A DNA stretch of 29,342 nt from a virus, in IMG/VR virus record IMGVR_UViG_3300027759_000313, positions 1-29,342 of that record; one strand, written 5' to 3'. Under the pieces are notes generated by a model. It was not told the DNA's origin, did no database searches, and saw only the letters and a list, made by a program, of their open reading frames with translations. Shown in pieces: positions 1,801 to 16,876 of this stretch. How positions within the stretch are numbered: the stretch's first letter is position 1; every line of letters starts with the position of its first letter. The position numbers and the translations under genes are program-made.

Positions 1801-3093
1801 ATGCCGCGACTAAGCCTTTACCGCCCCGAAAAGGGCAATGATTATAAATTTATAGACCGAAGTATTTGGGAAATGTTCCAGATTGGCGGCACAGATGTGC
1901 TTGTCCACAAATATCTAGGACCCGGAACATCCGTGCAAGGAAACACCCCTAGCACTCCTACCTACGATACAACAAATCCCACACAAATACAGGATCTATT
2001 GTTTTTAGAAAACCGTGATCGAAAGTACGATCCCGATGTTTATGTAATGCGTGGTGTATACAATATGCAGGATATTGACTTTAATCTAAGTCAATTTGGA
2101 TTATTTTTACAGAATGATACGCTGTTTATGACCTTCCACATTAACGATACTGTGGAAAAACTAGGTCGTAAAATCATGGCAGGCGATGTTTTAGAGTTGC
2201 CGCATCTAAAAGACGAATATGCTCTTAATGATTTAAACTTTGCTCTTAAACGTTTTTATGTTATTGAAGAAGTTAGTCGTGCAGCAGAAGGTTTTTCAGT
2301 AACTTGGTATCCTCATTTATATCGTGCAAAATGTAAACCTCTAGTTGACAGCCAAGAATTTAAACAGATACTCGATGCTGTACAAACTGATGCAGAGGGC
2401 AATGAGACAAATACAAGCCTACGTGACATTATGTCCACGTATGAAAAAGAAATGCAGATCACTGCTGGAGTACTTGATCAAGCAGAAGCTGATGCACCCA
2501 AGAGCGGTTATGATACAACCAAGTTTTATCATCTGCAGAAAGGTCCAGACGGTCAGGCTCAACTATTATCTGCTGAATTAGAAAATATTCACATCACTGA
2601 TGACCAACCTCAGGCTACAGATGAAAACGGTGCTCCATTATTTGACACCGAAGGTAATCCTGTATATGCAGGAGTCACTGCTGATCAAACTTATCGTTCA
2701 ATTGAACGTCAAGGCTATGGCACACTAAATGGCGGCACCGACAGTTGGTTAGACGATGCGTTACCAGCCAATGGTGCAAAGTTTACTTCAGGTATTGCAT
2801 TTCCTCCTAACCCACAAGAAGGACAATTTGCTCTGCGTACAGATTATCTACCAACAAGATTGTTTAGATACAGCGGCACAAGATGGATTAAGATCGAGGA
2901 TAATGTACGTATGACTATGAATAATTTGGGTGAGAGTGATGTTGGCTCAGGTGATAGATTTGCAGGTAAAGATGTTAGACTAACACAAAAAGCCGACTTT
3001 ATTAACAATACCAAGACAGCAACTATTCAAGGTAAGGTTGTTAAGGAGCGCCAGAGCTTGAGTAAAGCCCTTAGACCAGAGGCGGACGAATAA
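1801..3093 (+). CDS. 14: Neck protein (T4 gp14-like), extended
   Basis: This 430-aa protein is predicted to be the second neck protein, binding gp13 at the head-tail junction. The N-terminal about 190 residues carry the family-like run: MPRLSLYRPEKG, FQIGGTDVLVHKYLGP, then RGVYNMQDIDFNLSQFGLF and the strand-rich GRKIMAGDVLELPHL. T4 gp14 is about 256 aa. The C-terminal about 200 residues are extra and include a W-x-G-type fibre-like segment (LFRYSGTRWIKIED). The ATG at 1801 is chosen over an in-frame ATG at 1750 because 1750 would overlap the divergent gp13 start and because the protein then begins MPRLSLYRPEKG. No Shine-Dalgarno is visible; a late promoter-like box lies 7 bases upstream. The stop TAA overlaps the gp15 start (TAATG). 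Confidence 0.7.
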   Translation: MPRLSLYRPEKGNDYKFIDRSIWEMFQIGGTDVLVHKYLGPGTSVQGNTPSTPTYDTTNPTQIQDLLFLENRDRKYDPDVYVMRGVYNMQDIDFNLSQFGLFLQNDTLFMTFHINDTVEKLGRKIMAGDVLELPHLKDEYALNDLNFALKRFYVIEEVSRAAEGFSVTWYPHLYRAKCKPLVDSQEFKQILDAVQTDAEGNETNTSLRDIMSTYEKEMQITAGVLDQAEADAPKSGYDTTKFYHLQKGPDGQAQLLSAELENIHITDDQPQATDENGAPLFDTEGNPVYAGVTADQTYRSIERQGYGTLNGGTDSWLDDALPANGAKFTSGIAFPPNPQEGQFALRTDYLPTRLFRYSGTRWIKIEDNVRMTMNNLGESDVGSGDRFAGKDVRLTQKADFINNTKTATIQGKVVKERQSLSKALRPEADE

Positions 3094-4973
3094 TGGATTT
3101 CTTTTATGATGGGCAGATACGCCGATATGTCACACAATTTATGCGGGTGTTTATTGGATTCAAATACCAAGCAGGCGATGGCGAGGAAAGACTGGTTCCT
3201 GTTATGTACGGAGACCTTAGCAAACAGGTAGCCGGCATTATCAAAGACAACAGTGAAAACAAAATGCCCACTGTGCCTAGAATTGCTTGTTATATTACTG
3301 GTTTAGAATTAGATACCAGTAGGCTAGCAGACTCAACATTTGTCAGTAAGATGCAGGTAAGAGAGCGTACCTACGAAGATGTTAACGGTCAACGAGTCTA
3401 TGGTAACGAACAAGGTGCAGGTTATACTGTTGAACGATTGATGCCTACACCTTTTAAGTTAAAAGTTAAAGCAGATATCTGGACCAGTAACACTGATCAA
3501 AAGCTACAATTGTTAGAACAAATATTAATTTTGTTTAATCCAAGTCTAGAAGTTCAGACCACAGACAACTATATTGATTGGACCAGTCTCAGTGTGATCT
3601 ATCTCAGCAGTACTAGTTTTAGTTCTAGAACTATACCTCAAGGTGCCGCTGAAGATATTGACATTGCCAGCTTGGAATTTGAAATGCCAATCTACATTAC
3701 ACCGCCTGCCAAGGTCAAGAAACTAGGAGTTGTTCGTGCGGTGGTGCAGAATATGTTTAACAATACAGGCGATGCTGTTAATATCAATAACTTAATTTAC
3801 AACGACGGAGATATTCAAAATACCGTTGAATATAAACGCTATGGTATTGTCATGCTTAAAGGTGATAATGGAGTAGCAGGCGATTATTATATCACTATTG
3901 TTGATGTTGGACAGGCAGTTATCGATGCAGGATTAGATCTACCTCCAGAAAAAATTGGCAAAAAGTTAGACTGGCAATTGGTATTAGATCAGTATGGCGG
4001 CTATAAAGCTGGTGTTAGCCGTATTACTTTTAAAACCGCAACTGGCGGTAGTATAGTTGGTACTATAACCGTAAATCCTATAGACCCAACTATATTAGTG
4101 GCCAGCTTAGACATGGATACTGTTCCAGGAAATACAGAATTAATCACAGGAATATATCCAGATGGCTCGGTTTATAGCAGTGTTAGATCTGCTAGCAAAG
4201 GTACTATAGATGCAATTATTAATCCTTTTAATTTCAATCCTTTAACAGCCTACGGAACAAAAACAAATTATCCTGTAGGTCTAAGATACTTAATGTTAGA
4301 TGATTTAAATTTATTCTTGGCTCCTAAATTGGCTCCAAGTATTGCTACAAATATCATAGACACTGACATAGACTTCTATAGAATAACTAGACCCAATCAA
4401 AGAGAAAAGGCCAGTGTTACTAATCTTCCTAGAAGTTATGCCAATGTTTTTGAAACCAAAGTATTTGTTAATGGAGTTTCTGTGGCATTTACTGAAGTTG
4501 AAGATGGCGGCAAGTTTCAAACATTCAACAGCCAAAGCTATAGAACAGAGTCTGGAAAATACAAAATACGCTTAAATGAATTTCCTCCGTTGCAGGATGA
4601 AGACGGAAATGCCAGTGTTGTTAAGTATGTTATAGAACGTTACACCTACCCAGACTGGTACACCGAAGGTGATGATCCAGATACTATAACTGTTGAAACT
4701 GATGTTTACCTACCAGGCAAGCCTGAGCGTAGCAGTGGTCCAGAAGCATGGAAAAATCTAGATGGATCGGACACCTTTATCAAAGCCAACAGCATTATAG
4801 AATGGAATGGTAGTCAATGGGTTCGAGTATTTGACCCTGATGAGATTACTACAAATATATTCATTACTAATTTGCGAACTGGTATACAATATAAATGGGA
4901 CGGAGCACAATGGTTAAAATCTTTTGAGGGTGAGTATTTGCCAGGTTCTTGGAAATTGACCTTGAATCCCTGA
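3093..4973 (+). CDS. 15: Tail sheath stabiliser/completion protein (T4 gp15-like), enlarged
   Basis: The predicted role is the terminator ring at the top of the tail tube and sheath that docks to the neck. The N-terminus FFYDGQIRRYVTQFMRVF parallels T4 gp15 (FYNSSFRRYATLMGDLF). Later segments also match in order: MPTPFKLKVKADIWT, LLEQILILFNPSLEVQTT, then FEMPIYITPPAKV, as in T4 gp15 (NPSPIKMIYEL..., VEQILPYFQPHF..., FEVNGWMYPPV). The gp15 core therefore ends near residue 215. The remaining about 410 residues have no T4 counterpart (T4 gp15 is 272 aa). They end in two short Trp/Gly motifs, EWNGSQWVRVFDP and KWDGAQWLKSFEG, like those in phage fibre proteins. The start overlaps the gp14 stop. 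Confidence 0.82.
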   Translation: MDFFYDGQIRRYVTQFMRVFIGFKYQAGDGEERLVPVMYGDLSKQVAGIIKDNSENKMPTVPRIACYITGLELDTSRLADSTFVSKMQVRERTYEDVNGQRVYGNEQGAGYTVERLMPTPFKLKVKADIWTSNTDQKLQLLEQILILFNPSLEVQTTDNYIDWTSLSVIYLSSTSFSSRTIPQGAAEDIDIASLEFEMPIYITPPAKVKKLGVVRAVVQNMFNNTGDAVNINNLIYNDGDIQNTVEYKRYGIVMLKGDNGVAGDYYITIVDVGQAVIDAGLDLPPEKIGKKLDWQLVLDQYGGYKAGVSRITFKTATGGSIVGTITVNPIDPTILVASLDMDTVPGNTELITGIYPDGSVYSSVRSASKGTIDAIINPFNFNPLTAYGTKTNYPVGLRYLMLDDLNLFLAPKLAPSIATNIIDTDIDFYRITRPNQREKASVTNLPRSYANVFETKVFVNGVSVAFTEVEDGGKFQTFNSQSYRTESGKYKIRLNEFPPLQDEDGNASVVKYVIERYTYPDWYTEGDDPDTITVETDVYLPGKPERSSGPEAWKNLDGSDTFIKANSIIEWNGSQWVRVFDPDEITTNIFITNLRTGIQYKWDGAQWLKSFEGEYLPGSWKLTLNP

Positions 4974-5373: not shown

Positions 5374-5608
5374 AAGATTCAAAGCTGATGTTAAGCGTTA
5401 TACAGAAGCCATTGAAAAAATTCCCGAAGGTCAGTCAAAAACAGAAGCCAGAAGTCTTCTTAACAATCTCATTAATGAAGTAAAAAACATGGACAATATG
5501 TACATGGACATGGTCTATTCTAAACAGTTAACATCGTTAGGCGGAGAGATTCGAGATAAAATTACTTCCCTAAGAAAACAATTAGATAGTAGACTTAACT
5601 TCGTATGA
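5357..5608 (+). CDS. Small helical/coiled-coil protein of unknown function
   Basis: This 83-aa protein is rich in Lys, Glu, Asp and Leu with few turns. It has two stretches suited to amphipathic helices (about residues 5-47, and 58-79 ending ITSLRKQLDSRL). No motif for an enzyme or for metal binding is visible. It overlaps the Nudix-like gene by 17 bases and the first oxygenase gene by 4 bases (ATGA), so it is translated within the same operon. Small proteins of this kind near gp15 occur in T4-like marine phages; I do not know a function. Confidence 0.6.
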   Translation: MIQNTERFKADVKRYTEAIEKIPEGQSKTEARSLLNNLINEVKNMDNMYMDMVYSKQLTSLGGEIRDKITSLRKQLDSRLNFV

Positions 5609-6195
5609 ATTACAATATAGAAAACTTTGTAGGTGTATTTGAAAATGCAGTTTCGCCAGAGTACTGCAAAGAAACCATTGATTATTTTGAATCAATGCGC
5701 AGTCTCGATCTAGTAATAGACTCAAATCGATACTCTACAAAGGCCACTAACCTACGAAAAGACGAAACCGTATTTGCATTTCAACCCGAAGTGTTAGCAT
5801 TATATCCTACTCATTGGGCACTAAGAGGATTTACAGATGCATTTTGGCCTTGCTATCAAGAATATACCAAAGAATACAGTGCATTGTATAATGCTGCTAA
5901 ACACGGCATCATAGGCCTTAGAGTTCAACGTACTCCTGTAGGCGGTGGCTATCACGAATGGCATTTTGAAAATGGACATTTTGAAAATTCATCTAGAATA
6001 ATCACTATGATGCTGTACCTCAACGATGTCGACGAAGGTGGTGAAACTGAATTCTTATATCAGCACAGACGAGTCTCTCCAAAAGCAGGTACAATAGTGA
6101 TTTGGCCCACCGGATTTACTCACACACATCGAGGTAACCCTCCACTATCTAATACCAAGTATATAGTAACTGGTTGGTTAAACTTATTGGAGTAA
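5605..6195 (+). CDS. 2OG-Fe(II) oxygenase (PKHD/prolyl-hydroxylase-like) A
   Basis: This 196-aa protein has a double-stranded beta-helix (cupin-like) oxygenase fold. The predicted enzyme uses Fe(II), O2 and 2-oxoglutarate to hydroxylate a protein or small molecule. The core motif is GGYHEWHFE at 114-122, with His120 and Glu122 as likely metal ligands. YLNDVDEGGETEF at 138-150 and PKAGTIVIWP at 159-168 follow. The distal His is in FTHTHRG (173 or 175), with Lys185 in NTKYIVTGW as candidate 2OG anchor. HFEN is repeated at once (HFENGHFEN) from a 12-bp tandem DNA repeat at 5962-5988. It overlaps the upstream small gene by 4 bases and is the first member of the oxygenase island. The substrate is unknown. 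Confidence 0.85.
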   Translation: MNYNIENFVGVFENAVSPEYCKETIDYFESMRSLDLVIDSNRYSTKATNLRKDETVFAFQPEVLALYPTHWALRGFTDAFWPCYQEYTKEYSALYNAAKHGIIGLRVQRTPVGGGYHEWHFENGHFENSSRIITMMLYLNDVDEGGETEFLYQHRRVSPKAGTIVIWPTGFTHTHRGNPPLSNTKYIVTGWLNLLE

Positions 6196-6197
6196 GC

Positions 6198-6791
6198 ATG
6201 GGAACTGAGGCTATTTTTCCAACCCCAATATATTGGGCAACAGTAGATGATCCCCAAGTCCAGCAAAGATTCGAAGAAGTTTATACAAACTTAATCTCGA
6301 ACAACAAACTCCGTTATAAACCAAATTGGGCCAATACACATAAAATTAGTTCTATAGATTTTTCAGATAACCTAATAGAAGAGTCTGATCTTTTTGAATT
6401 TAAAAATGAACTAATGAATCATCTTTCAAAATACCTTGAAGATATAGGAAGAACTTCTGGTGTTGAACAGGTTAAAATAACAGCATCGTGGATGTCCGAG
6501 TTTTCTCAAGGAGATTATGCCCATCAACACTGCCACGGTGCCGCTGATATATCCGGAGTATATTATGTTAAGGCTGTTCCAGGTGATGCAAAATTTTATT
6601 TTAGGTCATCGAATAAAGGAATGAGCAGTTCTTACGCATTTAATCAGATACTTGATAAGAAAACAATTGAGCCAACAGCCGGGATGCTTATATTATTTCC
6701 AGGGTGGCTAGAACATGGGGTAGAAACACAATTGTCAGACCACAAACGTGTGAGTGTGTCATTTAATTTGGCTTTTATTCGCCAACTTTAA
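6198..6791 (+). CDS. 2OG-Fe(II) oxygenase, HxH type (TIGR02466/2OG-FeII_Oxy_5-like) B
   Basis: This is a 197-aa protein. The signature HQHCHGAADISGVYYV (residues 109-124) and the distal ILFPGWLEHGVETQ (165-178) followed by RVSVSFN (184-190) fit the small 2OG oxygenase family built on H-x-H...SGVYYV...FP..L.H.V....R.S.SFN. Candidate ligands are His111/His113 and His173, with Arg184 as 2OG anchor. The N-terminus IFPTPIYWATV is also typical. I start at ATG 6198 because GGAG lies 5 bases upstream and it follows the previous stop by 2 bases. An in-frame ATG at 6174 would overlap that gene. The family's substrates are largely unknown. Confidence 0.85.
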   Translation: MGTEAIFPTPIYWATVDDPQVQQRFEEVYTNLISNNKLRYKPNWANTHKISSIDFSDNLIEESDLFEFKNELMNHLSKYLEDIGRTSGVEQVKITASWMSEFSQGDYAHQHCHGAADISGVYYVKAVPGDAKFYFRSSNKGMSSSYAFNQILDKKTIEPTAGMLILFPGWLEHGVETQLSDHKRVSVSFNLAFIRQL

Positions 6792-6811
6792 TTTCAGAAG
6801 ACCCATGTTAA

Positions 6812-6819
6812 ACTAAATA
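6812..6819 (+). promoter_or_regulatory. Possible late promoter box before the 114-aa gene
   Basis: The sequence ACTAAATA matches 6 of 8 bases of TATAAATA. It lies in the largest gap of the rightward operon (6792-6846, 55 bases), upstream of a strong ribosome-binding site AAGGAG at 6835-6840. It could give the halogenase section its own transcript. The match is weak and AT-rich sequence makes chance matches common. Confidence 0.3.
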
Positions 6820-6846
6820 TCAAAAGTTATTTAAAAGGAGCATATT

Positions 6847-7191
6847 ATGCCATACAACCCAGAAGATCCAAATTCAGAAACGTACAAGCCATTAGGAACC
6901 AGCACATCGGTCATTCCTCCAACTGCCGATCCAGTCGCAGTTGCTGAAGAAGCAATTAGAATGTGTTTTCCGCAGTCTACTTCTAGGAATCAAGTTCCAG
7001 AAGCTTTAGCAACTGTAGAACAACTCCATAAACTTTGGAGCAGTTACAGGGATAGACAGACTTCTAAGACAGATACAATCACTGCCGTCGATGCGCTAGT
7101 ACAGCCTGCAATTACTAGAAATATTTTTGATGATGTTTGTTTAGAGTTTGTTAATAATGCTGTATCCGCAGTTAAAAACGTTAACCTATAA
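6847..7191 (+). CDS. Orphan 114-aa protein upstream of halogenase
   Basis: I do not recognise this protein. The first about 30 residues are Pro/Thr/Ser-rich and probably disordered (PYNPEDPNSE, SVIPPTADP). The rest looks helical, with a single Trp in QLHKLWSSYRD and two Cys (in RMCFPQ and DDVCLEF). There is no signal peptide or membrane segment. It has the best ribosome-binding site of the rightward operon (AAGGAG, 6 bases before ATG) after the longest gap, suggesting high expression. The halogenase-like gene starts 8 bases downstream. It could be a virion protein, a partner or a substrate of the neighbouring enzymes; nothing in the sequence decides. Confidence 0.7.
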   Translation: MPYNPEDPNSETYKPLGTSTSVIPPTADPVAVAEEAIRMCFPQSTSRNQVPEALATVEQLHKLWSSYRDRQTSKTDTITAVDALVQPAITRNIFDDVCLEFVNNAVSAVKNVNL

Positions 7192-7199
7192 GGCGATCA

Positions 7200-8792
7200 A
7201 TGATCAAGCCAGTTCATAAAATAGTAGTAGTCGGTGGCGGTTCAGCCGGATGGATGACCGCCGCTATGTTAATTAAAACTTTTCCGGATAGAGACATATT
7301 TGTAATTGAAAGCCCAGACTTCCCTATTCTTGGAGTAGGCGAAAGTACTTTGGGAGGAATCAATTCATATTGTCATTATCTAGGCATCGACGAAAAAGAT
7401 TTTATGACCTACACTGATGCCTCGTATAAAATGAGTATTAAATTTACAGATTTTTACGAAAAAGACAGTGGTGCTTTTCACTATCCGTTTGGATCTCCCT
7501 ATACTGAAGGTTTAGACGGAATGAAAGATTGGTTTGTTAAGAAACATCTAAATCCAGAAACTCCGATAGAAGATTTTGTAAGATGTTATTTTCCCGCTGC
7601 CGCATTATTTGAGCAAAATAAATTTAGCCTAAACAAATACGGGCAATTTGATAATTACAGTCCGGACTGGGATGTAGCCTATCATTTTGATGCAACTAAG
7701 TTTGGTCAATGGTTAAAAAATAATTATTGTTTACCAAGAGGTGTTAGACTAATTGCAGATACTGTAGTTGATGCCACTGTATCAGATAAAGGTATTGATT
7801 CTCTTAAACTAAACAATAGCGGAGATCTAGAGGCTGACCTGTATATTGACTGCACTGGATTTAAAAGTCTATTGTTAGGTGAATACTTAAAAGAACCGTT
7901 TAATTCTTATTCAGAAGTATTGCCTAATAATCGTGCTTGGGCTACTAGAATGCCCTATAAAAATAAAGAAGCAGAGTTAGAACCGTTTACAAATTCAACG
8001 GCTCTAGGTAATGGATGGGTTTGGAATATTCCCAGCTGGGAACGCCTAGGTACCGGTTATGTCTACAGCGATAAATTTATTAGCCCCGAAGATGCCAAAG
8101 AAGAATTTAAACAACATCTGATGAGCAATAAGATGTTGTTCCCTAGGACCAGAGAAGAGGTCGATGCACTTGAATTTAAAGATATTCCAATGAGAGTTGG
8201 TATGCACGAACGCACATTTGTTAAGAATGTTGTAGCTATTGGTCTTAGTGCAGGATTTATTGAACCTTTAGAATCCAACGGATTATTCAGTGTACATGAA
8301 TTTTTATTCAAATTATTAAAAATTCTAGAAAGGCCTGCTGTAACTCAATGGGATAAAGATGTATACAATGCAGGTGTATATGGATTATGGAGAAATTTTG
8401 CAGAATTTGTTGGATTACATTATGCATTAAGCATTAGAAATGATACACCTTACTGGCAGGCCAATGCTGAGAGAATTTATCGGCCTGGAATGCATAAGGT
8501 TGCACCGGATACCGCGCAAGGATACACTCAATTACATCATTCTAAAATGTTTGGGTCTGCAATGCCGGACGTTGCAGGTATGAATTGGGTCACTGTTGGT
8601 ATGAATTATTTTATCTATGATAAACAATCATTTATCATAGATTGTTTACACTATGACGGTGCAAGGATCAAAGAACATTCTGATAAAATAGTTCAAATAA
8701 TGGACTCAAGAAAAACAAAATGGTTAGATGCCGCAGAAAATAAACCAACTTTGTATCAATACCTAAAAGATAATATTCATAAAAAGGACTAA
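7200..8792 (+). CDS. prnA-like: Flavin-dependent tryptophan-halogenase-like protein
   Basis: This is a 530-aa protein of the PrnA/RebH family, which uses FADH2, O2 and chloride or bromide to make HOX and halogenate indoles. The FAD-binding GGGSAGW is at 12-18 and GVGEST at 45-50. The catalytic Lys equivalent is Lys77 in SYKMSIKF. The diagnostic WxWxIP motif is at 273-278 (WVWNIP). EPLESNG at 355-361 supplies the candidate catalytic Glu358, with Asn in place of the Thr that usually contributes to the halide site. Length is normal for the family (about 510-540). No flavin reductase is encoded in this window, so reduced FAD would come from the host. Homologues are known in some T4-like cyanophages. 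The substrate (free Trp, a peptide or another arene) is unknown. Confidence 0.88.
   Translation: MIKPVHKIVVVGGGSAGWMTAAMLIKTFPDRDIFVIESPDFPILGVGESTLGGINSYCHYLGIDEKDFMTYTDASYKMSIKFTDFYEKDSGAFHYPFGSPYTEGLDGMKDWFVKKHLNPETPIEDFVRCYFPAAALFEQNKFSLNKYGQFDNYSPDWDVAYHFDATKFGQWLKNNYCLPRGVRLIADTVVDATVSDKGIDSLKLNNSGDLEADLYIDCTGFKSLLLGEYLKEPFNSYSEVLPNNRAWATRMPYKNKEAELEPFTNSTALGNGWVWNIPSWERLGTGYVYSDKFISPEDAKEEFKQHLMSNKMLFPRTREEVDALEFKDIPMRVGMHERTFVKNVVAIGLSAGFIEPLESNGLFSVHEFLFKLLKILERPAVTQWDKDVYNAGVYGLWRNFAEFVGLHYALSIRNDTPYWQANAERIYRPGMHKVAPDTAQGYTQLHHSKMFGSAMPDVAGMNWVTVGMNYFIYDKQSFIIDCLHYDGARIKEHSDKIVQIMDSRKTKWLDAAENKPTLYQYLKDNIHKKD
8110..8140 (+). repeat. Perfect 10-bp inverted repeat inside the halogenase gene
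   Basis: The left arm is AACAACATCT at 8110-8119, the loop is 11 bases, and the right arm is AGATGTTGTT at 8131-8140. It is entirely within coding sequence with no T-run after it. Confidence 0.5.
8613..8647 (+). repeat. Overlapping alternative hairpins inside the halogenase gene
   Basis: Hairpin 1 has perfect 12-bp arms, ATCTATGATAAA at 8613-8624 and TTTATCATAGAT at 8631-8642, with a 6-base loop. Hairpin 2 has perfect 8-bp arms, AAACAATC at 8622-8629 and GATTGTTT at 8640-8647. They share bases, so only one can form at a time. They lie about 150 bases before the stop of the halogenase gene. Confidence 0.6.
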
Positions 8793-8793
8793 A

Positions 8794-9420
8794 ATGACTG
8801 TAGGATTATTCCCAGGTGAATTACACCCAAATGAAACCGTTGCCGGTTGTATCAGTATCTATGAAAAGGCTTGGCCAAATCCTTCGGAAGCTATTGCATT
8901 TATAGAAAGAGAAATTAGAGACCCTGATAGTGGCGTGGGTTTTCAACGAGCCACTACTGTTGGACAGGGACCGTTTCAAAAAGCACGAACTAATCAAGAT
9001 CTAGGTATTACTTGGTTAGCGCAGACTGTAGGAAATAAATTGATGAAAGACATTCATAATCAATTTTATTTTATGCTGTTGGCTGCAACAATTCCGTATT
9101 CTGAAAAATTTGGTATCCAAGAACCCTTGCACCACGAAGCATATAACATGCTAAAGTACAACACCGGACAAGAATACAAATCACATTATGATGGCGGAAC
9201 CAGGTTAGGAAGAGCTGTTAGTGCTATATGCTATTTAAATGATGACTATGTTGGTGGTGAAATTGAATTTCCGTTGCACAAAATTAAAATCAAGCCCGAA
9301 GCAGGGATGTTGATTTTATTTCCTTCCAACTATGCTTATCAACATGTTGCACATCCAATTATCTCAGGAACAAAATACGCACTGGTTACATGGTTACACG
9401 ATAGACCATTAGAAGGATAA
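8794..9420 (+). CDS. 2OG-Fe(II) oxygenase, prolyl-4-hydroxylase-like C
   Basis: This 208-aa protein has the classical P4H-type order. NMLKYNTGQEYKSHYDGG holds the metal pair His131-x-Asp133. AICYLNDDYVGGEIEFP is at 144-160 and KPEAGMLILFPS at 167-178. The distal His is 184 in YQHVAHPI, with Lys194 in SGTKYALVTW as 2OG anchor. All expected residues are present, so it should be active. Family members hydroxylate Pro or other residues in proteins, or free substrates; none can be assigned here. The ATG follows the halogenase stop by 1 base, with AAAAAGGA before it, so it is probably coupled to the halogenase. Confidence 0.9.
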   Translation: MTVGLFPGELHPNETVAGCISIYEKAWPNPSEAIAFIEREIRDPDSGVGFQRATTVGQGPFQKARTNQDLGITWLAQTVGNKLMKDIHNQFYFMLLAATIPYSEKFGIQEPLHHEAYNMLKYNTGQEYKSHYDGGTRLGRAVSAICYLNDDYVGGEIEFPLHKIKIKPEAGMLILFPSNYAYQHVAHPIISGTKYALVTWLHDRPLEG

Positions 9421-9424
9421 CTCT

Positions 9425-10084
9425 GTGGCCGAATCTACAGTATGTGCTATTTTTCCAATCCCTATCTATGTAACAGAATGTGATGTAGATATAGCTCCTG
9501 CTGTTGAGTTTTTAAAAAATCATAAAGATTTATTGCCCAATGACCATTCACAGATCTACGGAAACAAATCTGTAGACGATTATTTGTTAGATCGTTCAGA
9601 GTGTAACGAATTAAAAAGATTTATTATTTTACATATTGAAAAATATGCAGACAAAATAATGGCTTGGGATTTTGAAAGATTCGAAATTACACAAAGTTGG
9701 TTGACTATTAAACTCTCAGGAGAAGCTCACGGATTACATTTTCATCCTAATAGTGTTATCTCTGGGGTGTTTTATTTTGATGAATATCAAGAAGAAACTT
9801 CAAATTTAGTATTACACAGACCTGCAATAATGTCTCAATTAATGACTCATTTTGCTCCTGTTACTGATAGAAAAAAAATGAATGACACTGAGTTTCCCTG
9901 GAATGAATGGGAAATCAAACCTAAAAAAAATCAGCTGATATTGTTTCCGTCATGGTTGAGTCATAGTGTAAAACCAAACACTACACAACATGCTAGAAAA
10001 TGTCTAGCGTTTAATGCAGTTCCTGCTGGTAAATTTGGTTCTAAAGAAGGTGCTACAGAAATAGAGTTTAAGAGATTGGTATGA
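9425..10084 (+). CDS. 2OG-Fe(II) oxygenase, HxH type D
   Basis: This 219-aa protein belongs to the same small family as gene B. IFPIPIYV is at the N-terminus, HFHPNSVISGVFYF at 105-118 (His105, His107), and LILFPSWLSHSVKPN at 171-185 (His180). Arg191 with CLAFNAV completes the pattern. The middle (residues 120-165) is longer than in gene B. The start is a GTG at 9425, supported by AGAAGGA upstream and by the position just after the previous stop; there is no in-frame ATG early enough to keep the IFPIPIYV start. It overlaps the next gene by 4 bases (ATGA). Confidence 0.86.
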   Translation: MAESTVCAIFPIPIYVTECDVDIAPAVEFLKNHKDLLPNDHSQIYGNKSVDDYLLDRSECNELKRFIILHIEKYADKIMAWDFERFEITQSWLTIKLSGEAHGLHFHPNSVISGVFYFDEYQEETSNLVLHRPAIMSQLMTHFAPVTDRKKMNDTEFPWNEWEIKPKKNQLILFPSWLSHSVKPNTTQHARKCLAFNAVPAGKFGSKEGATEIEFKRLV

Positions 10085-10665
10085 TCGAACCAAAAATTTT
10101 AAAGCTATTTCCAAAAACTGTTTATTGTCAACAGAATCTTATGTTAGATAAGATAGAGTATCTGTATAATACCCTACACTCGTTAGATCTTCCGTGTAGC
10201 AAAGATTTAGCATTGTCAGTTAACTCATCTCACAAAACATTTCCTACCTTGCATCAACTAGAACCGTTTAAAGAATTTTCTAATATTGTTTTAGATCATG
10301 CTCGAGCTTACGGGAAAATGCTAGGTTATAGTGATACACAAAGAGATAAATTTAGATTTGTTAATATGTGGTTTAATCAAAGTTTTAAAGATGATTTTAA
10401 TTTTCCGCATCTACATAATGGTAGTATCATCTCAGGAGTGTTTTATATAAAAACAGTTTCTAAAAATAAAATTGTTTTTCAAAATTTCTCAGATCAGCTC
10501 ATTGAGCCGGACGATCCTACAGATCTAGCATGGAATATGAGTTGGATTGATACTGAGCCAGGCTTGTTGTTATTATTCAAAAGTAATTTAATACACAGCA
10601 ATCCTAGGCAAGAAGATGAAAATGAAAAATTAATTATTTCGTTTAATGTTACAATGGATTTATAA
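10081..10665 (+). CDS. 2OG-Fe(II) oxygenase, HxH type E
   Basis: This 194-aa protein is related to genes B and D. LFPKTVYC is near the N-terminus, FPHLHNGSIISGVFYI at 108-123 (His110, His112), and GLLLLFKSNLIHSNPRQ at 161-177 (His172). Lys183 with LIISFNV takes the place of the Arg normally anchoring 2OG. Of the HxH set in this island it has the least typical distal region (LFKSNL instead of LFPSWL). The ATG overlaps the stop of the previous gene. The fusion gene starts 1 base after its stop. Confidence 0.8.
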   Translation: MIEPKILKLFPKTVYCQQNLMLDKIEYLYNTLHSLDLPCSKDLALSVNSSHKTFPTLHQLEPFKEFSNIVLDHARAYGKMLGYSDTQRDKFRFVNMWFNQSFKDDFNFPHLHNGSIISGVFYIKTVSKNKIVFQNFSDQLIEPDDPTDLAWNMSWIDTEPGLLLLFKSNLIHSNPRQEDENEKLIISFNVTMDL

Positions 10666-10666
10666 T

Positions 10667-12622
10667 ATGAAAAAAAGACTAGGTGTTATTGGAGCAGGAT
10701 CGGCAGGGCTGATCAGTGCTGGTTATTTTTGTACAGTTTTAGATAACGCTTGGGAAATTGTTTTAATGCATGATCCTAAGTTAGATTCTTTAGGAGTAGG
10801 AGAAAGTACCAACGGTAATTTTGTTAAAACTCTCGAAGAGGCTATGGGTTTTACCTTTGAAGACGGCATGGTTGACCTAGATGCAACTAAGAAGTTTGGC
10901 ACTAAATTTATCAACTGGCGGGACAAACCTTTTATAAGTCCGTTGATTCAAGGAACGGCTGCTGTTCACTTTAATACTCGCAAATTTAAAGATTATACAC
11001 TAAAGAAACTTCCAGAAATGTGGCCGGAAAAATTCAAAGTGTTAGAAGGCGTAGTCGATGACCTTCAACAAAATGTCAATCATGCTGTAGTGACAATAGA
11101 TCACGAACAGCAGGTATTTGATTATGTGATCGATTGCCGAGGATTTCCTAAGAACTTTGACGATTATACCTTTAGCAACTGTACTTTGGTTAATCATTGT
11201 CTAGTGTACGACAGTCCTAAATTTAACCCTGTTGAATATACTGAGCATCATGCTACAGAAAACGGATGGATGTTCGGAGTACCTTTGCAAACAAGATGTA
11301 GTTACGGATACTTGTTTAATAATGAAATAACTTCTAAAGAAGATGCCCTTGCTGATTTTGCAAAACTAATGAAAGTATCTAAGTCTAAATTAGATTTTCG
11401 AGAGTATGAATTTAAACCCTACTATGCTAAGAAATTTTTAACAAATAGAATACTTAAAAACGGTAACAACGCTATATTCTTTGAACCAATTAGTGCCACA
11501 AGTATTTTCATGTACATACGAATCTGTGAAACTTTTTTAAAAGTAATAGTTGGAGAATACACTGAATTAGATTTAAATCAAGTTATTCGAAACGATTTAG
11601 AAGATTTAGAAACTGTTATTAGATGGTATTATCACAACGGCAGCATCCACGATACAGAATTTTGGCAGACAGCTAAATCACGAGCTACCGATCAGTTAAT
11701 GGGAGACTGGAAGTTTGAACGTTTATGTTCAATTTATAAAACTTTAGCAAAGGAAGGTAGGCCCTACGACGATGACGGAATGATTTTTACTGCTAAATCA
11801 TGGCACACCTTGGATAATATATTTGGTTGCCGGTATTTTACAGAAAATGATTTTATCTTTGACATGGAAAGAGTTGAGCAGCATCGTAAAATGCTTGAGG
11901 ATCGAATGGCTGAAGAATTAAAAAATTGTGAGTTGTTTACAAAAAACAAAAAAGCATTTGAAAAACAAGGTTATGTAGTTGTAAAGAATGTATTAGATGA
12001 ACTTACAGTTGATTTGATTACACACTATGCCCTAAATGATCAGTTACAAAATTTTAATCCCGAACTGGGAGGGTCTGCACAAATTCCAGGAACCCATAGC
12101 AAATATGCAGATCCCTTGATGGAATCATTGTTAGCACAAATGTCCCCTGTTATGGAAAGAGCTACAGGATTAAAATTATTGCCAACATACAGCTATTATC
12201 GTGTATATAAACCAGGAGATACATTACATCCACATTCAGATAGAGATAGTTGTGAAATTTCGTGTACTGTATGTTTTAATTTTAATTATGGAGAAATGCA
12301 AGATACTTATAAATGGCCGATATTTATGAGTGGTACAGCCTGCGATCTAAGTCCTGGAGATATTGCTGTCTACAGAGGTTGTGATATTTTACATTGGCGA
12401 GATGAATTTAAAGCTCCTGAGGGATCGTGGCATGTTCAGGCGTTCTTACATTACGTAGATGCTAACGGATCTCGTGCAGAGTGGCAATTTGACAAACGTC
12501 CAGGATTGGGTTTTTCTCAAGATTATCGAGAAAATATGATACAGGCGAATATAGAAGTACAACATGCCCCTGCTATTACAAATAAAACCGCCAGCAAAAA
12601 ATATATAACCTACACAGAATAA
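10667..12622 (+). CDS. Halogenase-like flavoprotein fused to 2OG-Fe(II) oxygenase
   Basis: This is a 651-aa two-domain protein. Residues 1 to about 420 follow the tryptophan-halogenase plan: GAGSAG at 9-14, LGVGEST at 42-48, and KKFGTKFINW at 75-84 with Lys76 matching the catalytic Lys. Two hallmarks are altered: WxWxIP reads WMFGVP at 201-206, and the catalytic-Glu motif EPLEST reads EPISAT at 273-278, placing Ser276 where Glu is needed. Residues about 425-610 form a 2OG oxygenase: HPHSDRD gives His523-x-Asp525, and DILHWRDEF gives distal His576; SWHVQAFLHYV follows. I use ATG 10667, just after the previous stop, because the FAD motif then begins at residue 8. The continuous frame excludes a simple mis-join. 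The flavin half is probably not a standard halogenase. Confidence 0.85.
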   Translation: MKKRLGVIGAGSAGLISAGYFCTVLDNAWEIVLMHDPKLDSLGVGESTNGNFVKTLEEAMGFTFEDGMVDLDATKKFGTKFINWRDKPFISPLIQGTAAVHFNTRKFKDYTLKKLPEMWPEKFKVLEGVVDDLQQNVNHAVVTIDHEQQVFDYVIDCRGFPKNFDDYTFSNCTLVNHCLVYDSPKFNPVEYTEHHATENGWMFGVPLQTRCSYGYLFNNEITSKEDALADFAKLMKVSKSKLDFREYEFKPYYAKKFLTNRILKNGNNAIFFEPISATSIFMYIRICETFLKVIVGEYTELDLNQVIRNDLEDLETVIRWYYHNGSIHDTEFWQTAKSRATDQLMGDWKFERLCSIYKTLAKEGRPYDDDGMIFTAKSWHTLDNIFGCRYFTENDFIFDMERVEQHRKMLEDRMAEELKNCELFTKNKKAFEKQGYVVVKNVLDELTVDLITHYALNDQLQNFNPELGGSAQIPGTHSKYADPLMESLLAQMSPVMERATGLKLLPTYSYYRVYKPGDTLHPHSDRDSCEISCTVCFNFNYGEMQDTYKWPIFMSGTACDLSPGDIAVYRGCDILHWRDEFKAPEGSWHVQAFLHYVDANGSRAEWQFDKRPGLGFSQDYRENMIQANIEVQHAPAITNKTASKKYITYTE

Positions 12623-13215
12623 TGCCAGAACCTAGAAGTTTATTAATCTTAGATAATGCTTTCTCAAAAGAACAACAAGATTATATTGAAAATTTTGTAA
12701 TTAATGATCAATTTCCTTGGTTTTTTCAAAGAGATATTGCCGGGGCAGAATACACCGCTAATGATGAAAACTATTTTCCATCTAGTGGGTTAACTCATGT
12801 TAGCTATAACTACGAAAAAATTAATTCTATATACTTTAAAGATGAGATAAACTTTGAAAAAATTGTAAGTGATTTAGCCAAAGCATTTAGTGTTGAATTA
12901 AAAGAAATTTTAAGAATTAAATTAAACTTAACAACGCCTATTCCTAGATATAAATCTAACAACTATTGCACTCCACACACTGATATTGCTACACCTCACT
13001 GGGTGTTGTTATATTATATAAATGACTGTGACGGAGATACAATATTCTTTGAAAACCCTACAGTAGGTAATCAAAATCCTTTAAAGATTACCTATAGAGT
13101 TTCTCCTAAAAAAGGCACCTGTGTGTTATTTGACGGCAGCATTTATCATACATCATCTAACCCGATAAACTCTCCTATGAGGGTAAATTTAAATGCAAAT
13201 GTAATTTTATTATGA
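12622..13215 (+). CDS. 2OG-Fe(II) oxygenase F (tandem paralogue 1)
   Basis: This is a 197-aa protein. YCTPHTDIAT supplies His119-x-Asp121, YYINDCDGDTIFFEN is the central strand-turn, and SPKKGTCVLFDGSIYHTSSNP supplies His176 in two pieces around residues 161-180. Arg187 in SPMRVNLN is the likely 2OG anchor. All catalytic positions are present. The next gene shares the same order of motifs and about the same length, so the two are tandem duplicates that have diverged strongly. The start overlaps the fusion-gene stop (TAATG). Confidence 0.84.
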   Translation: MPEPRSLLILDNAFSKEQQDYIENFVINDQFPWFFQRDIAGAEYTANDENYFPSSGLTHVSYNYEKINSIYFKDEINFEKIVSDLAKAFSVELKEILRIKLNLTTPIPRYKSNNYCTPHTDIATPHWVLLYYINDCDGDTIFFENPTVGNQNPLKITYRVSPKKGTCVLFDGSIYHTSSNPINSPMRVNLNANVILL

Positions 13216-13799
13216 TAGAAGAAATTGAAAATATTATCGACAAGTCTATACAAGATTCTATAGAACAATTTGTGTTAACTACAAACTTTCCTTGGTATCA
13301 CGGATCTACAATCAACGAGTACGACACTGACAAAGAAGACAGTAAGTTTATTGTGAAACAAGGTTTGAATCCCTATCAGTTTGTGCATAATGTTATAAAA
13401 GATTCTAGACAAAACAGTAGATTTCTTGGGTTGGTTAATCCTATTCTTGATGCCATCGGAGAGTATGTTAAAAAAGATCTTGAAGTATTAAAAGTTAAGT
13501 TTAATTTTTTACCTAGACATACAGATTCTAGCCATCATTGTCCGCATGTTGACATAGGTACTTACAAAAAAGAAAATATCAAGAGCGTTGTTTATTATGT
13601 TAATGACAGTGACGGAGATACTTATTTCTTTGACGAAACATGTCCCACTGAAAGAACAAGTTTAAATGTTATGCAGACTATTTCTCCTAAAAAAGGAAAA
13701 GCCGTAATGTTTGATTCCAACATATTTCATGCTAGCTCTAGCCCTATTCTATCAGATAAAAGAATAGTAATTAACATTGTTTTTAAAATATTGGACTAA
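13212..13799 (+). CDS. 2OG-Fe(II) oxygenase G (tandem paralogue 2)
   Basis: This 195-aa protein parallels the gene before it: NFPWYHG near residue 25, HCPHVDIGT with His112-x-Asp114, YYVNDSDGDTYFFDE, SPKKGKAVMFD, His173 in IFHASSSPI, and Arg184 in DKRIVINIV. The conserved spacing of every motif supports duplication and retention of activity. It overlaps its twin by 4 bases (ATGA). Confidence 0.84.
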   Translation: MIEEIENIIDKSIQDSIEQFVLTTNFPWYHGSTINEYDTDKEDSKFIVKQGLNPYQFVHNVIKDSRQNSRFLGLVNPILDAIGEYVKKDLEVLKVKFNFLPRHTDSSHHCPHVDIGTYKKENIKSVVYYVNDSDGDTYFFDETCPTERTSLNVMQTISPKKGKAVMFDSNIFHASSSPILSDKRIVINIVFKILD

Positions 13800-13802
13800 C
13801 AA

Positions 13803-14441
13803 ATGGATATACCTTATAATAATTATAAATTTGTAGATTTTGGTTATGTGATGGCCGATCTACCACAGAGTTTAAATGCTTCCTTATTATCCGAAGCTGC
13901 TAAGATACAATCAGATTTTTCTAAGGCGATACCTCGTCATAAAACTCTTGCTGGGCATCTTGTACACGAGTATGAACTTGTAGATAGTGCCGCTGAATTA
14001 GAAAAATTTGTTTTAGATCTAACAATGGCCTACGATCACGAATATAACTATCTAGCAGAAATTGATATATTAACTAAAAGTGTTCCGATGGTTGCAAGTC
14101 ATCCTTGGATTAATTTTCAACAAAAATATGAATTTAATCCGGTACATAACCATAAAGGTATTTTAAGTTTTGTAGCTTGGTTGAAAATACCCTATGATTT
14201 AAAAACTGAATGGGAACAAGGTCCCGGGCGCCATCGTAGTTCTCAGCTAAACTCAGCGTTTCAGTTTGTATATGTAGGGAATCTAGGACAGGCTGCTACT
14301 AAGACTATTCATATAGACAAGTCCTTTGAAGGGAAAATAATGATATTCCCTTCAAAGCTAATGCATTGCGTTTATCCTTTTTACACCAGCGACGATTATA
14401 GAATCAGTATTGCTGGCAATGTCATGCTTGACCCAAATTAA
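13803..14441 (+). CDS. 2OG-Fe(II) oxygenase, HxH type H
   Basis: This 212-aa protein is the last gene of the island. WINFQQKYEFNPVHNH at 102-117 ends with His115 and His117 and leads into KGILSFVAWLKIP. IMIFPSKLMHCVYPFY at 179-194 gives distal His188, and DDYRISIAGNV gives Arg200. The layout matches genes B, D and E, but the SGVYYV motif is replaced by LSFVAWL, so it is the most divergent of the HxH group. A perfect 12-bp hairpin lies in its last 120 bases. Its TAA overlaps the stop of the convergent 136-aa gene within TTAA. Confidence 0.78.
   Translation: MDIPYNNYKFVDFGYVMADLPQSLNASLLSEAAKIQSDFSKAIPRHKTLAGHLVHEYELVDSAAELEKFVLDLTMAYDHEYNYLAEIDILTKSVPMVASHPWINFQQKYEFNPVHNHKGILSFVAWLKIPYDLKTEWEQGPGRHRSSQLNSAFQFVYVGNLGQAATKTIHIDKSFEGKIMIFPSKLMHCVYPFYTSDDYRISIAGNVMLDPN
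14324..14357 (+). repeat. Perfect 12-bp inverted repeat near the 3' end of the island
   Basis: The left arm is CTTTGAAGGGAA at 14324-14335, the loop is AATAATGATA, and the right arm is TTCCCTTCAAAG at 14346-14357. It sits inside coding sequence, about 85 bases before the stop of the last rightward gene, where the transcript meets the leftward operon. No T-run follows. It may protect or process the mRNA end. Confidence 0.6.
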
Positions 14442-14848
14442 GAGTAATATTTCTTATCTGTAATATTGGCAATTTTACCTAGATGTGCGTTATTGACTTT
14501 ATCTAGGTAACGCATATTCCAAATATCCGGGCAATACATTTTACGATCGTCAAAGAACTGTTTGATCATAGGTCTTACATTGCGACCGTAAAATGCTTCC
14601 ATGTGATCTGGACCGTAGCGTACAACGTAGTATTCTGCGTAGGGGAACCAAGCACCGTACAAGGCCACTGCTCCGCCTCGCTCAATGATTACTTCCCAAA
14701 TTTCTACATCTTCGGGTTCAAGAACTCGATCATAGGACCAATCAGGATTTGGAGGAAGTACTACAGTATCTGAATCTTGCCAGTTTCTGTCCCATACTTC
14801 GTCTCCAAAATCTCCAAATATATTTTTATTAGTTTTAAACTGTGGCAT
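14438..14848 (-). CDS. Conserved T4-like phage hypothetical protein (136 aa)
   Basis: This is a 136-aa acidic, aromatic-rich protein with no enzyme motif. The segment DEVWDRNWQDSDTVVLPP followed by EPEDVEIWEVI resembles a hypothetical protein I recall from marine T4-like phages, of unknown function. The ATG at 14846-14848 lacks a Shine-Dalgarno, but a late box GATAAATA ends 5 bases upstream, so it probably has its own late transcript. It is separated by 21 bases from the glycine-rich tail gene upstream and converges with the oxygenase island. Confidence 0.7.
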   Translation of the reverse strand: MPQFKTNKNIFGDFGDEVWDRNWQDSDTVVLPPNPDWSYDRVLEPEDVEIWEVIIERGGAVALYGAWFPYAEYYVVRYGPDHMEAFYGRNVRPMIKQFFDDRKMYCPDIWNMRYLDKVNNAHLGKIANITDKKYYS

Positions 14849-14869: not shown

Positions 14870-16876
14870 TTACAAGTGTCTAATAATTACGACTCCAGTG
14901 CCGCCATTTCCTGCTACACCTGGGCTTGGATGCGATCCGCCACCGCCACCACCACCGGTATTAGCACTGCCAGTACCACCGGTTACGCTTCCTCCAGGGC
15001 CATTATGGTCGCCTGCACGGCCGCCGCCGCCGCCACCTCCGGGACTATTTCCTATTCCGTAATGACCTTGTGCTGCAGGACCGTGCTGGCCACCACCACC
15101 ACCGCCTGCATAGTATACTTGTGATCCTGTAATAGAGCTTGCCAAAGCTCGGCCGCCACTGCGAAAATCATTTACTAGTCCCACACCTCGACCTTTAGAT
15201 CCAGCGCCACCGCCTCCGCCACCTGCATACAGTGTGCCAGGTCCTGGAAAATTTCCAAATCCTGTGCCGTTACCGTGGGTTCCGGCACCTCCGGGATGGC
15301 CTTGTCCCGCAATACCCGATCCTCCAGGTACCAGCATAATGTTGCCAATGCCACCGCGGGATGAGCTAGGTCCACCATAAATTCCGCCTGGGCCGCCGAT
15401 GTGGCCCCCAGGGCCACCACCACCTGATCCGCCATTGGCTTTATCTCCCGGCCATACTCCCCCACCAGCGCCGCCATATCCGGTATTAGGATTGTAATAC
15501 TGTGCGCCACTGCCTCCGCCTCTAGCTTCCAATGAAGCAAATCTGCTTGGATTTCCGCCAGTTAATCCTGCATCTGTCCATGTGGTGGCACCTGTGCCAC
15601 CTGTGCCAACAGTTACTGGATACGATCCAGCATTAACTCTGTATCGGCTTTGATAGATAAAGCCGCCTGCGCCTGCGCCACCGCCAATTGTTCCACCACC
15701 ACCACCACCACCTATCACTAGTACTTCAATAGTTGCTGGTTGATTAAATGTCATTGTACCAGGCCCAGTAAATGTTTTTACCTGGTAACCACCTGCGGTA
15801 GTTCCTGTAACTGTTCCTGAAGTTGATGAACCAACAGATGCACCTATACTGCTCCAACCACTGTTTTCCAATATTTCTGGAAGAGCAGTTGTCGAGTTAT
15901 AACGCATTTCTCCTAGAACACTGTTGTAGGCAATGATCACTACTCCTGCACTGCTGACACTGGCATTGGAGCCTGGTCCCATTCCACCGCCACCGCTGCC
16001 AAAGCCGCTGGCAACATAGGCGGTCCCAAGGTCGCCGCCACCGCCCTTGCCGCCCACTCCCCAATAAGTTCCACTGTCACTGGTTGAGCCGCCGCCGCCT
16101 GCATAATATGTAGGTGTTCCAGATATAGTGCTGGCGAGTCCATCTCCACCATAGCCAATGTTGGTATCTCCAGCTTTCCATTGCCAACCTCGCATGTCAG
16201 TTATACGTTCCCATGTACCTTCACCTTCAAAGTAACTAGTGTTAGATGGATCTACTTTTAATCCGTTACCGCCCTTGGCTCCAGCGCCCCCACCACCTGA
16301 TCCGCCGGTATAGTTGTATCTATTTCCTGTGTTTAAACCGGGTAGGCCACCGTCGTTTCCCTGGCCTGAGGTTGTTGTACCTTGTCCGTTGTAGTTACTG
16401 GTAACTCCTGCACCAGAACCTACTGAGCCAGCACTGCCTACAGGTGCACCGTTTGACCAGTAGCCGCCGCCTTGGCCGCCATAGGCAGTTTGACCAAAGG
16501 CCACAGTATTATTTCCTTGTACTGAAGCGTTGTTTCCGCCTGCTACGCCTGCACCTATCGAAACAGTATAGGTGCTACCAGGCGTTACTGTAAAGTTTCC
16601 GTTATAGATGTAGCCGCCTGCGCCACCTCCACCTCCAACGTCACCACCCCCTGATCCGCCTGCTCCAATGACCAGTAAACGAATACTGGTTACACCTGCT
16701 GGTGCTACCCATTGAGAATTTGAAATTCCCGAAGGAGTACTGCCAGTTACCACAGTATACCCACCGGTAGTCCATCGAATTACTGTTTCGCCGGTTCCTG
16801 CTCTGGCATTAGTTGCTCCAGAAGGTAATTGCAGGAAACCTGTATCATTAATTGTAAGATTTTTTAAAGTCGCCAT
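14870..16876 (-). CDS. Glycine-rich adhesin-like tail protein, double unit
   Basis: This 668-aa protein begins MATLKNLTINDTGF, as do the next two genes. It contains two glycine-rich domains in tandem, roughly residues 35-320 and 350-668. Each opens with a GGY-x-V...F/G-T strand and RLLVIGAGG or EVLVIGGGGGGG, continues with GGYIYNG or GGFIYQS and poly-Gly loops, and closes with VVIIAYN or VVIIRHL. The junction carries a fibre-type segment, GEMRYNSTTALPEI...GWSSIGA, that in the paralogues stands near the N-terminus, so two units seem to have fused. Glycine-rich loops recall the receptor-binding adhesins (gp38 type) of T-even phages. I infer a host-recognition role. No Shine-Dalgarno is visible; it starts 12 bases after the gene upstream. 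Confidence 0.75.
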   Translation of the reverse strand: MATLKNLTINDTGFLQLPSGATNARAGTGETVIRWTTGGYTVVTGSTPSGISNSQWVAPAGVTSIRLLVIGAGGSGGGDVGGGGGAGGYIYNGNFTVTPGSTYTVSIGAGVAGGNNASVQGNNTVAFGQTAYGGQGGGYWSNGAPVGSAGSVGSGAGVTSNYNGQGTTTSGQGNDGGLPGLNTGNRYNYTGGSGGGGAGAKGGNGLKVDPSNTSYFEGEGTWERITDMRGWQWKAGDTNIGYGGDGLASTISGTPTYYAGGGGSTSDSGTYWGVGGKGGGGDLGTAYVASGFGSGGGGMGPGSNASVSSAGVVIIAYNSVLGEMRYNSTTALPEILENSGWSSIGASVGSSTSGTVTGTTAGGYQVKTFTGPGTMTFNQPATIEVLVIGGGGGGGTIGGGAGAGGFIYQSRYRVNAGSYPVTVGTGGTGATTWTDAGLTGGNPSRFASLEARGGGSGAQYYNPNTGYGGAGGGVWPGDKANGGSGGGGPGGHIGGPGGIYGGPSSSRGGIGNIMLVPGGSGIAGQGHPGGAGTHGNGTGFGNFPGPGTLYAGGGGGGAGSKGRGVGLVNDFRSGGRALASSITGSQVYYAGGGGGGQHGPAAQGHYGIGNSPGGGGGGGRAGDHNGPGGSVTGGTGSANTGGGGGGGSHPSPGVAGNGGTGVVIIRHL

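Follow-up and report, generated by a model that had tools for sequence, protein, structure and literature searches.

Cyanophages are known to carry both flavin-dependent halogenases and 2-oxoglutarate/Fe(II)-dependent (2OG) oxygenases. VirX1 (PDB 6qgm), from cyanophage Syn10, is an iodinating flavin-dependent halogenase. Ten 2OG genes have been reported in phage S-CREM1 (PMC9964418) and 24 in S-SCSM1 (PMC9602691), and cyanophage 2OG genes have been discussed as affecting 2OG pools or DNA repair (Sullivan et al. 2010, PMC3037559). Here we describe an island of such genes in the virus fragment IMGVR_UViG_3300027759_000313 of IMG/VR, a linear-classed stretch of 29,342 bp that we call the window. 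The island, at positions 5605-14441, comprises eight stand-alone 2OG-Fe(II) oxygenases, a VirX1-type halogenase, and a fusion of a halogenase-like flavoprotein with a ninth oxygenase domain, and lies near genes for Gly-rich tail proteins of family PF21722 (Gly_rich_2). We suggest, with confidence that is about evenly balanced, that it may be a module that modifies the phage's own Gly-rich tail-fibre proteins after their translation.

Comparable runs in known and uncultured phages

Runs of this kind are found in the cultured phages S-RIM44, syn9, P-TIM40, Sf-CH3, Sf-CH11, Sf-FR1, S-CREM1 and S-WAM1, where the genes are mostly annotated 'hypothetical'. In the syn9 island (gp41-gp54, DQ149023), as in the window, halogenases and 2OG-type genes adjoin Gly-rich tail-fibre genes. 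Its two halogenases are followed by 2OG-type genes, eight to ten in number: gp45, gp47, gp48, gp50, gp51, gp53 and gp54, together with the DUF6445 protein gp52, the JmjC protein gp49, and gp46, whose HxD...H...R pattern was judged by eye. Unlike the window, syn9 has two complete halogenases, no fusion and a T4-like cyanophage backbone, and its fibre genes lie upstream on the same strand. In S-CREM1 (OP535465), likewise, a single run beside a collagen-like/Gly-rich gene combines one halogenase with a JmjC gene and eight genes annotated as 2OG, but the fusion is lacking, and the region was published as auxiliary metabolic genes (PMC9964418). In Pelagibacter phage HTVC008M, five 2OG-type genes adjoin a Gly-rich gene and neck genes, and PrnA follows gp15 and the small terminase; here, however, the oxygenases are inverted and separated from the halogenase, and fewer of them lie near it.

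An initial annotation of the window, made from its letters alone, had known of no such density of oxygenases in a structural region; syn9, S-CREM1 and the published gene counts provide examples. Dense islands and their enzyme families exist in known phages, and in this respect the finding is not categorically new. What is new is the lineage, the halogenase-like/oxygenase fusion, the recurrence of the module across unrelated backbones, and the link to Gly-rich genes. We found no description of the combined halogenase/2OG/Gly-rich arrangement in the literature searched, whose coverage is incomplete and makes this weak evidence of absence. The T4-like cyanophages are not close to the window phage in backbone: its gp14 and gp15 are nearest to those of the jumbo myophages Phosso, Atu_ph07 and PA5oct, and it is therefore not an ordinary cyanophage. 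Its island is of the cyanophage type, defined by a full-length halogenase, several 2OG genes and adjacent PF21722 genes.

Scanning IMG/VR with the window halogenase returned 38 loci (loci and records are denoted by L numbers), in which genes were counted with a home-built profile set cross-checked against Pfam on syn9 and L018. A single locus holds up to eleven 2OG genes (L020, L025) or up to five halogenase-type genes or fragments (L038-L040). The neighbourhood search that the initial annotation had proposed thus finds the same kind of run both in cultured cyanophages and in IMG/VR loci. The order seen in the window, fusion included, is reproduced in L018, and parts of it in L016 and L017. 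Six further loci (L019-L022, L025, L052) carry backbone genes, the island and a 136-amino-acid gene on single contigs, with Gly-rich genes next wherever the contig extends. In L028 the enzymes directly flank two Gly-rich genes, and a separate clade (L085, L087-L090) repeats the order Gly-rich gene, oxygenase, halogenase-like gene, oxygenases.

Enzymes of the island

The nine oxygenase domains, all encoded on the plus strand, fall into four groups. PF13640 is matched at 5605..6195 (1.4e-14; HxE...H...K) and at 8794..9420 (4.3e-15; HxD...H...K); the latter is prolyl-4-hydroxylase-like, with prolyl 4-hydroxylases as its nearest solved structures (2e-7). Four proteins belong to the PF13759 type, at 6174..6791 (4.5e-18; HxH...H...R), 9425..10084 (3.4e-21; HxH...H...R; PDB 2rg4/3bvc), 10081..10665 (1.5e-11; HxH...H...K) and 13803..14441 (5.5e-11; HxH...H...R). 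The phrog_274 group consists of 12622..13215 (1.6e-34, with a weak Pfam match at 3e-4; HxD...H...R) and 13212..13799 (6.9e-36, and PF13640 at 2.1e-7; HxD...H...R), and the fourth group, phrog_2954, is the C-terminal domain of the fusion. All nine domains match a 2OG oxygenase family in Pfam or PHROGs, and all nine keep the metal triad and the 2OG-binding Arg or Lys. An AlphaFold2 model of the 12622..13215 protein (predicted local distance difference test, pLDDT, 90) gave 476 PDB matches at E<=0.001 in Foldseek, among them the solved 2OG dioxygenases PHD2, P4H and SnoN. The double-stranded beta-helix was modelled for this protein and for the fusion C-domain, and Foldseek confirms the former; the other domains are assigned by sequence. 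The nine domains belong to the 2OG-Fe(II) oxygenase superfamily, and their activity is predicted from these motifs and profiles.

The gene content claimed by the initial annotation is thus borne out, as are its mixture of HxE, HxD and HxH metal motifs and, for the one protein confirmed by Foldseek, the fold. The HxH motif is the norm of PF13759 (91 of 95 relatives) and is therefore not in itself a sign of novel chemistry. PHROGs labels phrog_274 and phrog_2954 as 'DNA endonuclease V' or 'ferrochelatase'; motifs, profiles, the 12622..13215 model and Foldseek show a 2OG dioxygenase fold. These labels, together with that of phrog_3531, look wrong, because the matching proteins here carry 2OG-oxygenase motifs.

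The halogenase at 7200..8792 (+) matches PF04820 (Trp_halogenase) at 1e-99, and its best solved relative is VirX1 (6qgm, 8e-102), of the same family and with the same catalytic residues; identity to the Syn10 gene is about 38%. It keeps every diagnostic residue, namely GxGxxG (VVVGGGSAGWMT), Lys79 (ASYK), Glu346 (EPLES) and WxWxIP (GWVWNIP). Searches of GTDB with narrow patterns found no bacterial counterpart.

The fusion at 10646..12622 (+) joins a halogenase-like flavoprotein (residues ~1-360; PF04820 2.7e-36) to a 2OG oxygenase domain (~437-619; phrog_2954 2.3e-43; HxD). Its AlphaFold2 model has two confident domains with a poor linker at 363-427, and the N-terminal part matches PyrH, RebH and VirX1. 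In this part the flavin motif and the position of Lys79 are retained but, unlike in VirX1, Glu346 and WxWxIP are lost (EPISA, GWMFGVP), and the fusion in L018 shows the identical loss. For this reason it should not be named a halogenase until an assay supports this, and of the two halogenase-type proteins originally annotated only the one at 7200 is complete. An alignment query with the fusion retrieved 19 IMG/VR loci; in the islands of L085-L090 the two domains are separate genes.

Linkage to Gly-rich tail proteins and neighbouring genes

We located PF21722 and 2OG families in 22 records of cultured phages and on four uncultured contigs, and halogenases in the first 16 of these. Against a null of circular shifts (20,000 draws), which preserves within-genome clustering and takes genomes as independent, so that significance is overstated, 16 of 19 full-length halogenases from 13 cultured genomes lie at most 10 kb from a PF21722 gene (2.65 expected), and 63 of 219 2OG genes lie within 10 kb of one (27.8 expected); neither count was reached in any draw. 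The nearest halogenase-PF21722 distance is 1.0-3.9 kb in 10 of the 13 genomes. By comparison, the short solitary halogenase-like genes of S-SSM5 and S-SCSM1 lie 33-47 kb from PF21722. Among uncultured loci of at least 15 kb (one per halogenase cluster), a Gly-rich gene is nearby in 14 of 15 that have at least two 2OG genes, versus two of six that do not (Fisher p=0.011).

Three such genes follow the island in the window, all on the minus strand, and their products are the candidate substrates: 14870..16876 (32% G; PF21722 1.8e-17), 16889..17983 (29% G; 4.4e-10) and 17990..19075 (28% G; 5.7e-9). Some of the cyanophage Gly-rich proteins match the tail-fibre families phrog_863, phrog_21412 and phrog_6202. 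The motif GQGxPGG is present in 19 of the 58 Gly-rich proteins that lie near halogenases and absent from all six controls, a number too small for this comparison. The window Gly-rich protein matched no solved structure by sequence. In gp38 of T2-type phages, a polyglycine II tip carries protruding loops that bind host receptors (PMC12892980), and by analogy PF21722 proteins may adopt a polyglycine-II fold.

The location between tail genes and adhesins given in the initial annotation is upheld. From the left end, the window holds a deoxynucleoside monophosphate kinase (-), a gp13-type adaptor (-), a gp14-type structural gene, and, as left neighbour of the island, a gp15-type tail sheath stabiliser (3093..4973, +; PF16724 7e-23) with its nearest relatives in jumbo phages. 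Two small genes lie between gp15 and the island, and an 83-amino-acid open reading frame precedes 5605..6195, which overlaps its stop. A 136-amino-acid protein (14438..14848, -), conserved between the island and the Gly-rich genes in L018-L022, L025 and L052, had no match among cultured phages. Beyond the Gly-rich genes are, all on the minus strand, an S74 fibre, a small gene, a 2563-amino-acid adhesin or tail protein (20441-28132) that contains seven carbohydrate-binding stretches of type CBM_5_12 along with weak BNR repeats, and another tail-fibre gene.

Within the island, a 114-amino-acid protein (6847..7191, +) is encoded directly upstream of the halogenase, as in related uncultured phages; it has relatives in L016, L017, L019-L022, L025 and L052 and no homologue in cultured phages. 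We rejected its equation with the small gene of ~150 amino acids that precedes cyanophage halogenases, as the similarity is unconvincing and no cultured phage has a homologue.

Several accessory families recur in the related loci. Members of phrog_7084 lie within islands of cyanophages and uncultured phages (L009:15580-16368, L005:15685-16392, L013:15663-16400, L025:8884-9630, L027:8197-8934); the protein is present in syn9, S-RIM44, L025 and L027, with BLAST relatives in S-CREM1, P-TIM40, Sf-CH3, L022 and L026, and had no match among the window island proteins. A protein of 222-237 amino acids with an SGNH-hydrolase-like GDS motif is found within islands at L016:3795-4496, L018:2342-3052, L020:13094-13768, L022:13462-14175, L025:14049-14723 and L047:6806-7474; the L025 copy has no Pfam match. 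L025 encodes a phage Cpn60/TCP1 chaperonin between gp15 and the island (L025:6684-8273; PF00118 1.2e-78), and open reading frames of similar size (~530 amino acids) occupy the matching position in L020, L021, L022 and L052. Two islands contain a Methyltransf_24-domain protein (L026:4513-6228, L027:11645-12826). Three loci that have a halogenase and no 2OG genes encode a 278-amino-acid protein with 15 consecutive Gly-X-Y triplets (L036:8151-8987, L037:13236-14072, L043:13236-14072).

Possible substrates of the island enzymes

The proposal of a tail-fibre modification module builds on results computed here: which families the enzymes belong to, which catalytic residues they have, that the gene order is conserved, and that the island is physically linked to Gly-rich genes. 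From these we infer a protein as the enzymes' substrate, the Gly-rich proteins as that protein, and an effect on binding. Late in infection, the VirX1-type halogenase would halogenate aromatic side chains using host FADH2, halide and O2, and the 2OG oxygenases would hydroxylate several different residues using host Fe(II), 2OG and O2, each family serving a different position or residue type. The targeted sites would most likely lie in the PF21722 proteins of the neighbouring genes, in their loops or Gly-rich stretches, and the tail tips would change in stability or in how they contact receptors. The JmjC_2 family, to which syn9 gp49 belongs, includes characterised members that hydroxylate proteins. 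Peptide-bound Trp is a known substrate of some flavin halogenases (PMC10858898, PMC12518702). A protein substrate is therefore plausible, since peptide-acting flavin halogenases are known and protein hydroxylases are among the nearest relatives. The initial annotation's idea of a dedicated modification module holds up in this form.

Several observations weigh against this proposal. Trp makes up only 0.5-1.9% of the window Gly-rich proteins, so that Tyr or His would need to be halogenated at some sites; these residues are slightly enriched in Gly-rich proteins near halogenases (Tyr 4.1 vs 3.2%, His 2.6 vs 1.5%), a small difference measured against six controls. The full-length halogenase of S-B64 lies 65 kb from PF21722, and the cultured genomes are related, so that their counts are not fully independent. 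Finally, Sinorhizobium phage Phosso, which has the closest gp15 backbone, carries, after gp15, genes for NAD synthetase and nicotinate phosphoribosyltransferase (L063:17577-20271), in the slot that the island occupies in the window.

The Phosso arrangement also favours the main rival, which we consider unlikely yet worth serious attention: the interval between fibre and neck genes would be an insertion hot spot, the enzymes would be auxiliary cargo that acts on the metabolism of the host, its 2OG pools, nitrogen signalling or small molecules, and the proximity of Gly-rich genes would be positional. Sullivan et al. (PMC3037559) put forward both hot-spot regions in cyanophages and a 2OG/NtcA role, and 156 of the 219 2OG genes lie more than 10 kb from PF21722. 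However, apart from oxygenases and halogenases the islands hold almost nothing but a few accessory families that recur, rather than the usual photosynthesis or carbon genes. Cyanophages, a pelagiphage and a jumbo-like lineage differ in backbone yet share the pairing, and 2OG consumption can hardly account for as many as eleven divergent oxygenases.

Two further explanations appear improbable, and about equally so. In one, the product of the island is a small molecule or peptide bearing halogens and hydroxyl groups, akin to pyrrolnitrin or to the ribosomally synthesised and post-translationally modified peptides, with the 114-amino-acid protein perhaps as precursor. A halogenase with oxygenases does resemble a natural-product cluster, the 114-amino-acid gene directly precedes the halogenase in many relatives, and Gkotsi et al. 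reportedly found in 2019 that VirX1 halogenates free substrates. But the window yielded no Pfam match to other pyrrolnitrin enzymes or to peptide-maturation, transport or leader-peptidase genes, and a pyrrolnitrin pathway there was rejected because PrnB, PrnC and PrnD, the enzymes beside PrnA, were not recognised. Island-bearing cultured phages, moreover, have a different small protein in place of the 114-amino-acid one. In the other, the enzymes would act on proteins of the host, on ribosomes or on surface glycans, for instance in translation takeover or a superinfection block. JmjC_2 proteins, the relatives of syn9 gp49, and prolyl hydroxylases include enzymes that act on bacterial ribosomal proteins or EF-Tu; a host target, however, does not predict the location among late structural genes or the PF21722 link, and no glycosyltransferases were recognised in the window.

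A metagenomic fragment with many paralogues might suggest misassembly into a chimera or a series of decayed genes, but both can be practically dismissed: L018 has the same order and fusion, L016 and L017 hold parts of it, related contigs (L019, L021, L022, L025, L052) span both junctions, and catalytic residues are intact in all nine oxygenases.

Modification of tail fibres would bear on two open issues, what viral halogenases such as VirX1 act on in nature and why marine phages have so many 2OG oxygenases, for which host metabolism and antibiotics are the usual answers. The linkage described here supplies a specific candidate substrate, the Gly-rich proteins, that can be checked by mass spectrometry in cultured cyanophages. 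We tentatively envisage, at somewhat less than even confidence, that the virus encodes a pathway of protein maturation: as many as eleven oxygenases, together with several flavin enzymes, would place hydroxyl groups and halogens on many positions of Gly-rich tail adhesins and alter receptor-binding chemistry while the adhesin gene stays the same. A virion protein would then be what VirX1-type halogenases naturally act on. If true, this would represent a layer of chemical variation on phage receptor-binding proteins, a halogenation system for structural proteins, and a source of enzymes that modify proteins.

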